Assembly: GCF_002067135.1 (NCBI RefSeq)
Contig: NZ_CP020105.1
Location: forward strand, 2,294,001 to 2,358,000
From: Spirosoma rigui
GTDB lineage: Bacteria > Bacteroidota > Bacteroidia > Cytophagales > Spirosomataceae
Length of the DNA stretch: 64,000 nt
Direction of reading: 5' to 3'
The translations under genes were made by a program, and so were the position numbers. Under the pieces are notes generated by a model that saw only the letters and a program-made list of their open reading frames with translations, was not told the origin of the DNA and did no database searches. The first letter of the stretch is position 1, and the number at the start of each line of letters is the position of its first letter. Below, in pieces: positions 31,492-39,319 of this stretch.

Positions 31492-33432
31492 ATGGCCATA
31501 TCCCACCCCCTTCGGTTTTTGTTTTTGCTGACGTATCTGCTCATCGCCTATGACCGGTCAGGGTTTGCACAGGACCAGCCCTACTCCGTCCGGATGGCGA
31601 ACAGTATCATGGCCGTTCACCCGGACGCTATCATCACGAAGGAAGGGCAACCAGCCCGCTGGGATTACGAACAGGGGCTGGTGCTGAAGGCGCTTGAACG
31701 GGTGTGGGAGCGTACTGCCGATGCCCGGTATTACAACTACATTCTCAGCGATATAAACCGCTACGTGGGCGCCGATGGGACTATCCGTACCTACAGCGTC
31801 GACGAGTTTAACCTCGACAACATGCCGGGTGGTCGTATCCTGCTCATGCTGGCCCAGCAAACTGAAGCCAACCGGATGAAATACCGGAAGGCTGCCGATG
31901 TGCTTCGAAACCAACTGGCGCAACAACCCCGCACCAAAGAACAAGGGTTCTGGCACAAGCAGCGGTATCCGTACCAGATGTGGCTCGATGGTCTGTACAT
32001 GGCTGCCCCCTTCTACGCCGAATATAGCACACTCTATAACAAGGGTAACGATCTGGATGATGTTGCCCGCCAGTTTGCGCTCATCGAGAACCACCTGGTC
32101 GATCCCAAAACGGGATTGCTTTACCACGGCTATGACGAAAGCCGGGCGCAGAAATGGGCTAACCCCAAAACGGGTCAGTCGCCTAATTTCTGGGGGCGAT
32201 CCATTGGCTGGTATGCCATGGCGCTCGTCGATGTGCTCGACTATTTCCCCGCCAATCATCCCCGGCGGGCTACGCTTATCGGCTATCTCCAGCGGCTTAT
32301 GCCCGCCGTTATCCGCTACCAGGACAAAAAGTCGGGCTGCTGGTACCAGATCGTAGACCAGGGAAGCCGGAAGGGTAATTATCCCGAAGCGTCGGCGTCG
32401 TGTATATTTGTTTACGCACTGGCCAAGGGCGTACGGATGGGATACCTGCCCGAGGCCCTGCAGGCCAATGCGAAACGCGGCTACGATGGTATTCTGAAAA
32501 CCTTCGTGGAGCAGGTGCCCGGCGGAAGCCTGGCTCTCAATGGTACGGTCAGCGTGGGGGGATTGGGCGGTACGCCCTACCGCGACGGTAGCTACGACTA
32601 TTACCTGAGTGAACCCATCCGTAAAAATGACCTCAAAGGTGTAGGACCGTTTATCATGGCCAGTGTGGAGATGGAAATGGCCGAGGAGCGGAAGCTGGGA
32701 CGTAACAAAACCGTTGGCCTGGATTACTATTTTAACCACGAGTTTCGCAAGGACGATTCGGGTGGGCCGGAAACCGGTAGCCCCGTTCGGTTTCATTATA
32801 CCTGGGAAGACCGGATGCACTCCGGATTCTGGCTCTGGGGTAATACCATCCGGGAGTTAGGAGCAAAAACGGTTTCGGTGCCGGGCGCACCCACCGCCCA
32901 GACGCTGAAAAACGTGGATGTATACATCATTGTAGATCCTGACACGCCGAAAGAAACTACCAAACCTAACTACGTTCAGAAACCTGATATCGACGCTATC
33001 GAAACCTGGGTCAAAGCAGGTGGTGTTCTCGTCCTGATGGCGAACGACACGGCCAATGGTGAGATCCGGCATTTTAACGAACTGGCCGGCCGGTTCGGAA
33101 TACGGTTTCTGGACGAGCAGGTGAATCCCGTTGTTGGTACCCAGTGGGAGGGGGGCAAGCTGACAATTCCGGCCAGTCATCCCATTTTTCCGGCTACCCA
33201 AACCATTTACGTAAAGGAGCTGGCCCCGCTGGCCCTGACGCCCCCCGCCAAACCCGCACTCACCAAGGGCAACCATGTTATTATGGCAACGGCGAAGGTG
33301 GGCAAGGGAACCGTGTTTGCCATCGGCGATCCCTGGCTTTATAATGAATACACCGACGGCCGACGGATTCCGGCTTTGTACCAGAACTTCCGGGCGGGCA
33401 AAGAACTAGCCATGTGGCTGTTGAAACAGTAG
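31492..33432 (+). CDS. GH88/GH105 unsaturated glycuronyl hydrolase fused to a DUF4350-like domain
   Basis: 646 residues with a signal peptide (cleavage near residue 25). Residues about 30-400 are an (alpha/alpha)6 barrel of the YteR type: YPYQMWLDGLYMAAPFYAEY with the catalytic Asp, SPNFWGRSIGWYAMALVDVL, and GSRKGNYPEASASCIFVYAL. It removes unsaturated uronic acids from rhamnogalacturonan or similar lyase products. Residues about 435-645 (HSGFWLWGNTIRELGAKTVS, VDVYIIVDPDTP, WVKAGGVLVLMANDT, GKGTVFAIGDPWLYNEYTDG) look like a glutamine-amidotransferase-like DUF4350 domain that may bind ligand. Next to fucosidase and isomerase genes. Confidence 0.88.
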   Translation: MAISHPLRFLFLLTYLLIAYDRSGFAQDQPYSVRMANSIMAVHPDAIITKEGQPARWDYEQGLVLKALERVWERTADARYYNYILSDINRYVGADGTIRTYSVDEFNLDNMPGGRILLMLAQQTEANRMKYRKAADVLRNQLAQQPRTKEQGFWHKQRYPYQMWLDGLYMAAPFYAEYSTLYNKGNDLDDVARQFALIENHLVDPKTGLLYHGYDESRAQKWANPKTGQSPNFWGRSIGWYAMALVDVLDYFPANHPRRATLIGYLQRLMPAVIRYQDKKSGCWYQIVDQGSRKGNYPEASASCIFVYALAKGVRMGYLPEALQANAKRGYDGILKTFVEQVPGGSLALNGTVSVGGLGGTPYRDGSYDYYLSEPIRKNDLKGVGPFIMASVEMEMAEERKLGRNKTVGLDYYFNHEFRKDDSGGPETGSPVRFHYTWEDRMHSGFWLWGNTIRELGAKTVSVPGAPTAQTLKNVDVYIIVDPDTPKETTKPNYVQKPDIDAIETWVKAGGVLVLMANDTANGEIRHFNELAGRFGIRFLDEQVNPVVGTQWEGGKLTIPASHPIFPATQTIYVKELAPLALTPPAKPALTKGNHVIMATAKVGKGTVFAIGDPWLYNEYTDGRRIPALYQNFRAGKELAMWLLKQ

Positions 33433-33519: not shown

Positions 33520-34275
33520 CTACTTCAATCCTTTCAGGTAGGCAATGCTCTGCGGCACCTGCGCGTGGATGCTGGGGCTTTCGTCTTCGATGTAATAATG
33601 CTGAACACCGGCCTTTTTGGCGGCTTTGAGCACGGCGGGCAGATCGATCTGGCCCGTGCCGAGGGCCACGTCATTCTCAACGGGTGTGCCACCCGACAGA
33701 TTACCCACAACGCCCTTGCGGAGGTCTTTGAGGTGCATGAGCTGAAACCGCTTGCCGTACTTGTTGAGCAACGCGACCGGGTCCTGTCCGGGAAAAACCG
33801 TCCATAAAATGTCCAGCTCAAAGCTTACATAGTTGGGATCGGTGTTCTTGACGATGTAGTCGAACAGCGTACCGTTTTCATATTTTTCAAATTCGTAGCC
33901 GTGGTTGTGGTAACAGAACGTAAGCCCAAATTCGTCTTTCAGTTGCTTGCCGAACCGATTGAAGTCGGCAACGGTTTTTTTTGCCAGATCAAGCGTGAAA
34001 GGACCATCGTGCGGTACCCAGGCAACGCGCACGTACTTCGCGCCCAGTGTTTTGGCATTCTGACCTACCTCCGGCAGTTTGTTGAGCAGATCGGGATAGC
34101 CCACACCGAACGACGAGCAGTGCATACCCCGTTCATCGAGCAGCCCGCGCAGTTCCGCAGCCGTTTTGCCAAACAGGTTGGAGAACTCCATGTCGGTAAT
34201 TCCCAGCGCTTTGATGGTGTCGAGGGTGGCTGCTACGTTGTTCTTGAAACTGTTGCGGTAGGTATAAGAGACCAT
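33520..34275 (-). CDS. sugar phosphate isomerase/epimerase, TIM barrel, cut off from its signal peptide
   Basis: The 251-residue open part has MVSYTYRNSFKNNV, ALGITDMEFSN, GLTFCYHNHGYEFEKY, VSFELDILWTVFPGQDP, RFQLMHLKDLRKG and HYYIEDESPS, i.e. the AP-endonuclease-2/xylose-isomerase-like barrel with metal-binding Glu, Asp and His. It is very similar to the complete paralogue at 37031-37912, which is exported. In this copy a TAG codon at 34285-34287 separates the domain from an in-frame signal peptide encoded at 34288-34368. ATG at 34275 (inside the former PGM motif) could restart translation to give a cytosolic enzyme lacking the first few barrel residues. Confidence 0.75.
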   Translation of the reverse strand: MVSYTYRNSFKNNVAATLDTIKALGITDMEFSNLFGKTAAELRGLLDERGMHCSSFGVGYPDLLNKLPEVGQNAKTLGAKYVRVAWVPHDGPFTLDLAKKTVADFNRFGKQLKDEFGLTFCYHNHGYEFEKYENGTLFDYIVKNTDPNYVSFELDILWTVFPGQDPVALLNKYGKRFQLMHLKDLRKGVVGNLSGGTPVENDVALGTGQIDLPAVLKAAKKAGVQHYYIEDESPSIHAQVPQSIAYLKGLK

Positions 34276-34368
34276 ACCGGGCGTCTACGGAAAAATTGCG
34301 TTTCGCCCTTGGGCAAACAGAGGGCTGGTTATCAGCAGGCAGAGCCCAACCAGGAGTGAATGTTTCAT
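34276..34368 (-). pseudogene. signal-peptide fragment ending in an in-frame TAG, 5' part of the isomerase gene
   Basis: ATG at 34366-34368 opens a typical Sec signal peptide (MKHSLLVGLCLLITSPLFAQ) followed by GRNAIFP and then TAG. The next codons read TPGMVSYTY, in the same frame as the isomerase. The paralogue has SKSIFPQAPGMQTYTY at the same place, so a single C-to-T change (CAG to TAG) explains the break. Without the stop the gene would run 33520-34368 and encode a 282-residue exported protein. Confidence 0.72.
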
Positions 34369-34413: not shown

Positions 34414-34449
34414 AAAGCGACTGCCGTGTCATAACAAGGCAGTCGCTTT
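34414..34449 (-). terminator. hairpin after the DUF5916 gene
   Basis: AAAGCGACTGCC (34414-34425) and its exact complement (34438-34449), 12-nt loop; weak T content beyond the stem. It lies 36 bp after the stop of the minus-strand gene. Confidence 0.55.
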
Positions 34450-37030: not shown

Positions 37031-37912
37031 ATGAAACGTTTAACCTATTCGGGTACGGTAGCTATGGCTGCGCTGCTGCTCAACGTACTCAGTGAAGGGC
37101 TCGTAAGCGCCCAGTCTTCGAAGTCTATTTTTCCGCAGGCACCCGGTATGCAGACGTATACGTACCGACGGGGGATGAAGACAAACGTGGAAGCCTCCCT
37201 CGACAGTATCAAAGCGCTGGGTATCACCGATCTGGAATGTGGCGTGTTTCCCGGCAAAACGGCCGCCGAATCCCGCAAGATGCTCGACGACCGGGGGATG
37301 CACTGTTCCTCGTTCGGGGGTGGGTACGAAGCGTTGCAGGACCCCGAGAAACTGCGGGAGATTGGCCGGAATGCCAAGATCATGGGAGCCGACTACATCA
37401 TGCTGGCCTGGATTTTGAAGAAGCCACCCTTTACAATCGACGACGCTAAAGCGGCCGTGACCAACTTTAATCGCATTGGCAAGCAGCTGAAAGATGAGTT
37501 TGGGCTTACCTTCTGCTACCATAACCACGGCTACGAGTTTCAGCCCTATGAGAACGGTACCCTGTTCGATTACATCGTTAAGAACACCGACCCAAAGTAC
37601 GTAAGTTTTGAACTGGACCTGCTCTGGGCGGCTTTCCCGGGCCAGAAGCCGGAAGAACTGCTCAACAAATACGGCAACCGGTTCAAGCTGATGCACCTCA
37701 AAGACCTGCGTAAGGGCGTGCCGGGTGACCTGTCGGGCGGTACATCGGTAGAGAACGATGTAGCCCTTGGTACGGGGGCTATCAACATGCCTGCTGTGCT
37801 GAAAGCCGCCAAAAAAGCCGGTATCAAACATTATTATATTGAAGACGAAAGCTCATCCTTTGCTACGCAGGTACCCCAGAGCCTCGCCTATCTGAAGAGC
37901 GTAAAAGAGTAA
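37031..37912 (+). CDS. exported sugar phosphate isomerase/epimerase (TIM barrel)
   Basis: 293 residues with a signal peptide (cleavage near residue 27, LVSAQ). The barrel shows MQTYTYRRGMKTNVEASLDS, ALGITDLECG, GLTFCYHNHGYEFQPY, VSFELDLLWAAFPGQKP, FKLMHLKDLRKGVPGDLSGG and HYYIEDESSS. Metal-binding Glu/Asp/His residues of the xylose-isomerase-like superfamily are kept. Related secreted proteins occur next to glycoside hydrolases and 3-keto-sugar enzymes. It is 36 bp upstream of the fucosidase gene and probably cotranscribed with it. It is the intact paralogue of the broken gene at 33520. Confidence 0.88.
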   Translation: MKRLTYSGTVAMAALLLNVLSEGLVSAQSSKSIFPQAPGMQTYTYRRGMKTNVEASLDSIKALGITDLECGVFPGKTAAESRKMLDDRGMHCSSFGGGYEALQDPEKLREIGRNAKIMGADYIMLAWILKKPPFTIDDAKAAVTNFNRIGKQLKDEFGLTFCYHNHGYEFQPYENGTLFDYIVKNTDPKYVSFELDLLWAAFPGQKPEELLNKYGNRFKLMHLKDLRKGVPGDLSGGTSVENDVALGTGAINMPAVLKAAKKAGIKHYYIEDESSSFATQVPQSLAYLKSVKE

Positions 37913-37948
37913 GTTCGTTATCCTGTTTTGTCACCTAACCACCAGCCA

Positions 37949-39319
37949 ATGCACATCCGTCGCGCAGCTTCCGTGCTGTTTGCCTGTCTTGTAAGCACCT
38001 TCGTTCAGGCACAGTCCGATCCCGCCGGTACAGTCCGTCCCACGCCCCGCCAACTGGCATGGCAGCAACTCGAAACCACCGCTTTCCTGCACTTTACGGT
38101 CAACACCTATACCGATAAGGAGTGGGGCGACGGCACCGAAAGCCCCGCTATTTTCAATCCGGTCAAACTCGATGCCCGCCAGTGGATTCGGTCGCTGCGT
38201 GATGCGGGATTCAAGATGGCCATTATCACGGCCAAGCACCACGACGGTTTTTGCCTGTGGCCATCGAAGCAAACGGAACATTCGGTAAAAAACAGCCCCT
38301 GGAAGAATGGCAAGGGTGACGTAGTACGGGAGGTGGCCGATGCCTGCCGCGAGTATGGTCTTAAGTTTGGCGTCTATCTCTCGCCCTGGGATCGGCACGA
38401 AGCCCGCTACGGTACGGCTGCTTACAATGACTATTACAAGGCTCAGTTGCGCGAACTGCTCACCAACTACGGCCCGGTGTCGGAGGTTTGGTTCGACGGG
38501 GCGAAGGGAGAGAATGCAAAAGACATGACCTACGATTTTGCCGGCTACTGGGCGCTGGTGCGGGAGTTACAGCCGCAGGCAGTGCTGTTCTCCGACGCCG
38601 GACCCGACGTGCGCTGGGTAGGTAACGAAGCCGGTAATGCGGGTGAAACCTGCTGGTCGACCATTAACACCAAAGGGCTGGCTCCCGGCGTTGCCGATCC
38701 TAAATACCTGAACCAGGGTGACCCCGCCGGAAAGCAGTGGGTACCGGCTGAAACGGACGTATCTATCCGTCCGGGCTGGTTCTACCACGCCAGCGAAGAC
38801 GCGAAAGTACGGTCGGCCCAGAGCCTGGTAAACCTCTATTATCAGTCGGTGGGCCGTAACAGCCTGTTGCTGCTCAACGTACCGCCCAACCGCGACGGTT
38901 TGCTGGCCGACTCGGACGTAGCCAGTCTGGCTGCGTTCCGGCGAGTGCTGAACGAGACGTTTAAAACCAATCTGGTAGCGAAGAATTCGAAGCTTACCGA
39001 TAAACAACTTACTACGTTCGTGCCGCTGGCGGCCACCCAACCGCTGGTGATCGATTTAAACGGCGAGCAGACGTTTGACCGGATCATGCTGCAGGAAAAC
39101 ATCGCCAACGGCCAGCATATTGCTGCCGGCCGGGTAGAGTACTGGACGGGCAGCGAATGGAAGCTGCTCCAAAATTTCACAACGGTAGGCTACAAGCGAC
39201 TGATGCGGTTTCCGGCCGTGCGGTCGTCCCGCATTCGCCTGATGATCACTAACGCCAACGGGCCTGTGCAATTGGCCGAAGCAGGCGTTTACAAGGCGTC
39301 GGCGGGTGAAGAAAAATAG
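37949..39319 (+). CDS. alpha-L-fucosidase, GH29
   Basis: 456 residues with a signal peptide (cleavage near residue 22). FLHFTVNTYTDKEWGDG, MAIITAKHHDGFCLWPS, LKFGVYLSPWDRHEARYG and SEVWFDGAKGE (nucleophile Asp) are GH29 motifs; a C-terminal beta-sandwich (from about 335) could be a discoidin/F5-8 type module. It releases L-fucose from glycans or xyloglucan in the periplasm. ATG at 37949 is preferred over the in-frame TTG at 37928. Preceded by the exported isomerase gene. Confidence 0.92.
   Translation: MHIRRAASVLFACLVSTFVQAQSDPAGTVRPTPRQLAWQQLETTAFLHFTVNTYTDKEWGDGTESPAIFNPVKLDARQWIRSLRDAGFKMAIITAKHHDGFCLWPSKQTEHSVKNSPWKNGKGDVVREVADACREYGLKFGVYLSPWDRHEARYGTAAYNDYYKAQLRELLTNYGPVSEVWFDGAKGENAKDMTYDFAGYWALVRELQPQAVLFSDAGPDVRWVGNEAGNAGETCWSTINTKGLAPGVADPKYLNQGDPAGKQWVPAETDVSIRPGWFYHASEDAKVRSAQSLVNLYYQSVGRNSLLLLNVPPNRDGLLADSDVASLAAFRRVLNETFKTNLVAKNSKLTDKQLTTFVPLAATQPLVIDLNGEQTFDRIMLQENIANGQHIAAGRVEYWTGSEWKLLQNFTTVGYKRLMRFPAVRSSRIRLMITNANGPVQLAEAGVYKASAGEEK

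Follow-up and report, generated by a model that had tools for sequence, protein, structure and literature searches.

A probable recent nonsense allele between the signal peptide and the TIM barrel of a putative exported 3-keto-glycoside lyase in Spirosoma rigui

BT1 from Bacteroides thetaiotaomicron (PDB 8tct) and AL1 from Alistipes (8tcd, 8tcr) are 3-keto-beta-glucopyranoside 1,2-lyases with a TIM-barrel fold, and AtOGE from Agrobacterium (8bvk), a beta-eliminase that cleaves O-glycosides, belongs to the same superfamily. In the published literature, PMC13273386 concerns, in excerpt, a 3-keto-C-glycoside lyase, while BT2157, which is also mentioned in an excerpt of PMC11501099, is described in an excerpt of PMC9007349 as a DUF1080 hydrolase and lies outside the family of the present enzyme. 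A literature search on 3-keto-glycoside lyases found no recognised BT1/AL1 paper, so the function assigned below rests on PDB titles. On the side of translation, the closest described systems are close stop/start pairs at which ribosomes terminate and reinitiate; according to the excerpted text of PMC6728339, only about 10% of overlapping Bacteroidetes gene pairs have a Shine-Dalgarno (SD) motif at the downstream start. In Flavobacterium johnsoniae, A at positions -3, -6, -12, and -13 promotes initiation (PMC6847099, in excerpt).

We analyzed a gene of the same TIM-barrel fold in Spirosoma rigui, lying in a stretch of 64,000 nucleotides that is called the window here. Translation of the minus strand from 34368 to 33520 gave a hydrophobic leader ending in LFAQGRNAIFP, an in-frame TAG, and then, from TPGMVSYTY onward, an enzyme that runs intact to the stop codon at 33522-33520 (Table 1). 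The first-pass annotation had placed the TAG at 34287-34285 and an internal ATG at 34275, and translation confirmed both positions. The signal peptide of the broken gene was assigned by eye and by homology. A consensus promoter and terminator scan called nothing at the leader, and mRNA folding around the TAG was unremarkable (z -0.9). The locus is probably a very recent nonsense allele of a gene for an exported enzyme, present in a single genome among those examined.

Table 1. Positions of the features of the broken gene and its neighbors in the window
Feature	Position	Strand	Basis or remark
Leader, 27 sense codons	34288..34368	-	Sec-type signal peptide by eye (MKHSLLVGLCLLITSPLFAQ...), followed by GRNAIFP
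In-frame TAG	34285..34287	-	Translation; aligned residue mostly Q in homologues
ACG CCC GGT, 9 nt between the TAG and the next in-frame ATG	34276..34284	-	Encodes the conserved PG of FPQxPG
First in-frame ATG past the TAG, start of the 251-aa ORF	34273..34275	-	Initiation context poor
Enzyme body, 251 residues, PF01261 (AP_endonuc_2) TIM barrel	33520..34275	-	Pfam, structure model, PDB matches
Terminator-like hairpin, 12-bp stem	34414..34449	-	z -3.4; separates the DUF5916 gene from the broken gene
DUF5916 protein gene, uninterrupted, 763 aa	34486..36777	-	Directly upstream; 83% identical to Spirosoma utsteinense
Intact paralogue with signal peptide	37031..37912	+	72% identical over the enzyme part
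GH88 gene	31492-33432		Domain search
Alpha-L-fucosidase gene	37928-39319		Domain search

The domain search assigned the enzyme part to PF01261, the Xylose isomerase-like TIM barrel, and an identity as IolE (TIGR04379) was rejected at 59.3 bits, below the curated NCBIfam cut-off of 290. For the 251-aa form, AlphaFold gave a model with a mean pLDDT of 94.4, and the structures at Foldseek ranks 1-4 of this model all belonged to BT1/AL1 (E 1.0e-14 to 8.7e-14, TMq 0.79-0.83), with the BT1/AL1 entries and 8tcs also being the best PDB matches by sequence. The S. rigui enzyme has the TIM-barrel fold in common with BT1 and AL1 but is only 25-27% identical to them, and its leader is severed by the stop; AtOGE matches residues 4-240 of 251 but is likewise distant, at 24-26% identity. 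An alignment of 29 homologous sequences has invariant His, Glu, and Asp residues. At the identity found to BT1 and AL1, an exported 3-keto-glycoside lyase is the putative activity and more likely than an isomerase. The label of sugar isomerase given in the first-pass annotation is a loose name for the PF01261 family; the solved structures closest to the enzyme are those of 3-keto-glucoside 1,2-lyases. A profile search identified 31 PF01261 matches in the S. rigui genome, none of them with an internal stop; these and 80 TonB plug matches make up a large sugar-processing and uptake repertoire for 5.8 Mb.

A same-genus search with the full-length protein returned matches at E 1e-120 or better in 12 of 36 genomes, all covering the TAG site. 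In the 11 genomes other than that of S. rigui the match was free of stops, and S. rigui was the one reported with "1 TAG". An open in-frame leader, with an upstream ATG, GTG, or TTG at 18-45 codons, was identified in all 71 of the homologous loci that were counted; these are the loci with alignable leaders (L038-L105, L113-L115) out of 79 in named genomes, with 8 distant loci (L106-L112, L116) left out, and they include close paralogues, same-genome pairs, and one partial match, and overlap the set of 11 same-genus genomes. The hydrophobicity of the leaders was assessed by eye. Because the leader is in frame with the homologous Met throughout the 71 loci, the arrangement of leader and enzyme is not a chance juxtaposition, and the unrelated upstream sequence in orthologues that the first-pass annotation had named as evidence against its reading was not found.

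Among relatives with DNA, Spirosoma utsteinense is the nearest, at 92% identity over 251 residues; it reads IFPQTPGMVSYTY, and its collinearity with the window extends across about 44 kb. In 12 aligned relatives, the site codon is CAG in 6, CAA in 5 (the codon of S. utsteinense), and GAA in 1. The intact paralogue, 2.7 kb from the broken gene, has CAG at the site and reads IFPQAPGMQTYTY, and from it the first-pass annotation had concluded that CAG became TAG. The loss of a sense codon is borne out; the one-step change from CAG is presumed, since the relatives' codons are mixed and S. utsteinense has CAA. Among the best-listed 120 of 7998 homologous proteins, a set in which P0001 is counted, the site residue is Q in 97, K in 7, E in 5, D in 2, R in 2, P in 1, and F in 1, with a gap in 5. 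Four of the 5 gap entries are 251-aa proteins that begin at the internal Met, namely P0005, the window's own, and P0095, P0104, and P0106; the latter 3, available as proteins only, may reflect start-site calls, cut genes, or further lost leaders. The FPQxPG segment directly before the internal Met is widely conserved in the homologues.

The paralogue also has a counterpart in S. utsteinense, where it adjoins the orthologue of the broken gene. For the DUF5916 protein upstream, a representative at 91% stood first among the matches listed. The hairpin that separates these two genes in S. rigui has a core found once in the genome and lacks a clear U tract; the consensus terminator scan did not call it, and the corresponding S. 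utsteinense spacer held no similar stem.

The age of the TAG can be judged from P0001, a public protein of 282 residues that has Q at the stop site and is the same as the broken gene at the other 281 residues. It is available as protein sequence only and is found on 2 contigs, the longest of 24,731 b, while the chromosome of 5,828,404 b carries the 251-aa P0005 instead. Q is likewise the residue at the site in P0002, P0003, P0004, and P0006, which rank next in nearness and come from elsewhere. The existence of an otherwise identical intact protein indicates that the TAG is recent: on these comparisons, it is either a very recent change in a single genome or a base error. If P0001 comes from another isolate, the site would be polymorphic; if it comes from another assembly of the same strain, a base error would be the explanation.

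Substitution rates were compared with S. utsteinense. The enzyme part had a dN of 0.045 and a dS of about 1.6, which is near saturation, with a ratio of about 0.03, while the leader, with a dN of 0.34 over 27 codons and saturated dS, was under much weaker constraint than the enzyme part; the leader was likewise weakly constrained when S. utsteinense was compared with S. fluviale (dN 0.70). When amino-acid changes were assigned to branches by majority among 11 other relatives, the enzyme part had 7 changes on the S. rigui branch, 10 on the S. utsteinense branch, and 3 unassigned, and the leader had 3, 4, and 4, respectively. These counts, over enzyme part and leader, gave no acceleration of amino-acid change on the S. 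rigui branch, as expected of a young allele; given P0001, the TAG is too recent for relaxed selection to show in them. The enzyme part is free of the decay that would prove loss. The first-pass annotation had noted that the other parts of the gene look under selection, and strong purifying selection on the enzyme part was indeed found, but it does not serve as a hint of retained function. This selection predates the TAG, as the intact and otherwise identical P0001 indicates, and so is no sign of present function. The case carries a caution in that strong purifying selection over a whole gene is silent on what the gene does now if there is an intact form that is otherwise the same.

The strongest rival of a recent nonsense allele, and one that the first-pass annotation had also named, is an error in the assembly, with the DNA of the strain having a sense codon and an intact gene, which we consider unlikely. 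P0001 would explain the whole case in this manner if it derives from reads of the same strain, and another PF01261 paralogue is frameshifted beside runs of G6 and A4, where assemblies err. On the other side, the genome is a single contig and 99.81% complete, and by inspection the broken gene is the sole break inside a conserved gene of the collinear region. Finished genomes contain fewer substitution errors than indel errors, which also counts against a base error. Of 52 S. utsteinense ORFs compared with the window, 40 matched, and 5, the broken gene among them, were flagged for a stop and 0 for a frame change; in the reverse comparison of 58 window ORFs with S. utsteinense, 40 matched and 7 were flagged, 2 of these for a frame change. 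General decay of the region was rejected on inspection of the other flagged rows, which are gene ends, overlong or antisense ORFs, or a second paralogue. Genome-wide decay of genes was rejected as well, with 80 TonB plug and 31 PF01261 matches lacking an internal stop; the exception is a weak match at C1:3472506-3473033, which contains a TAG and is the frameshifted PF01261 paralogue. This paralogue (L008 900-1830, about C1:3472342-3473272, plus strand) has GGGGGG and AAAA runs at the break and the TAG in the shifted frame, and it is either a real pseudogene or an assembly indel. Taken together, these results make the assembly look good, though not beyond doubt.

A functional alternative to loss of the enzyme is termination-reinitiation, in which ribosomes halt at the TAG and restart at ATG 34275 and the cell uses a cytosolic enzyme. 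The gap between stop and ATG is merely 9 nt, and ribosomes can resume at a nearby internal Met after an artificial internal stop, as reported in the excerpt of PMC6728339; the scarcity of SD motifs at downstream starts described there for Bacteroidetes also favors a restart. The mean pLDDT of the 251-aa form predicts good folding, and M32 lies nearly at the start of the barrel, with the first strand formed by residues 31-33 in the full-length model, which is less sure than the 251-aa model (mean pLDDT 84.7). Against this stands the poor context of the ATG. We scored starts by log-odds, contrasting 72 ATG starts with 2187 internal ATGs in 464 kb of DNA, 6 kb of which was counted twice, and the score had a cross-validated AUC of 0.94. 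ATG 34368 scored 6.74, above 60% of the 72 training starts. ATG 34275 scored -1.81, above 84% of the internal ATGs and above 3% of the training starts, and by the latter measure it lacks an initiation context typical of the organism; the homologous internal Met in four relatives scored -0.10 to -5.73. Of the F. johnsoniae positions (-3, -6, -12, and -13), not one is occupied by A before ATG 34275, while ATG 34368 has A at -3.

A restart would also lose the widely conserved FPQxPG segment, the TAG is present in none of the relatives examined, and, given P0001, there has been no time yet for selection on a short form to show. Weighing the poor context and the lost FPQxPG against the documented restart and the predicted folding, restart at ATG 34275 is possible but probably weak, although reinitiation over the 9-nt gap could give more product than the context implies. 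Use of the restarted enzyme by the cell is accordingly graded as rather improbable. Distinctly improbable, too, is the broader proposal that one base change has moved a keto-sugar lyase from the periplasm to the cytosol by way of termination-reinitiation across 9 nt, and that this is seen at its very beginning, while the intact form is still circulating.

Readthrough of the TAG, yielding some full-length exported enzyme and hence both forms, finds the enzyme part intact and in frame behind the stop but is highly improbable, as the genome search gave no amber-suppressor tRNA, TAG is an ordinary stop that ends 82 of 313 ORFs, and this TAG is conserved neither in the 11 other same-genus genomes nor in the 71 loci. 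ARAGORN called 42 of 43 tRNA matches, none with anticodon CTA; inspection by eye of the 43rd, uncalled match showed no CTA, and a search for a CTA anticodon-T-loop pattern returned 7 places, none holding a called tRNA. A 458-kb scan for stops flanked by strongly coding sequence yielded a single candidate, which was a TAA and not a TAG; it also missed the TAG at 34287-34285 and is therefore insensitive to stops near N termini. With TAG ending so many ORFs and the scan giving no TAG candidate, general recoding of TAG was rejected. Low-level readthrough could be allowed by a near-cognate tRNA. A weak tRNA called Asn, with anticodon ATT, lies at C1:2706500-2706570 (L180 51-122) and adjoins a tRNA-like match uncalled by ARAGORN.

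The first-pass annotation had left three outcomes side by side, namely a fresh pseudogene, an internal start, and readthrough. Loss of the exported enzyme is now favored, the internal start suffers from its poor context, and readthrough has no sign in its support. In a recent nonsense allele, the gene for an exported TIM-barrel protein resembling 3-keto-glycoside lyases would have had a glutamine codon just past its signal-peptide region changed to TAG, and ribosomes starting at 34368 would make a leader peptide of 27 residues and then terminate. The exported enzyme would be lost, presumably with no useful product, and at most a low-level restart at ATG 34275 would give a cytosolic product lacking FPQxPG. 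The loss would presumably be neutral, and other family members, including the one 2.7 kb away, may make it tolerable, although the 31 PF01261 relatives are a diverse set.

As it stands, the locus is most likely one more single-strain nonsense allele and not a new mechanism. Were a restart shown, the locus would offer a natural example, and a clean one, of an enzyme shifted from one compartment to another by a single base, in a phylum that initiates translation largely without SD motifs. Like the termination-reinitiation pairs treated in the excerpt of PMC6728339, the locus has an AUG 9 nt past the stop, but it differs from them in being a single change inside a gene, without a conserved restart signal. 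With young nonsense alleles and pseudogenes of bacteria it shares a reading frame that is interrupted where its relatives, and a protein identical in all else, are intact, and it differs from these alleles in having a single break and a downstream in-frame Met that is able, in principle, to restart translation.
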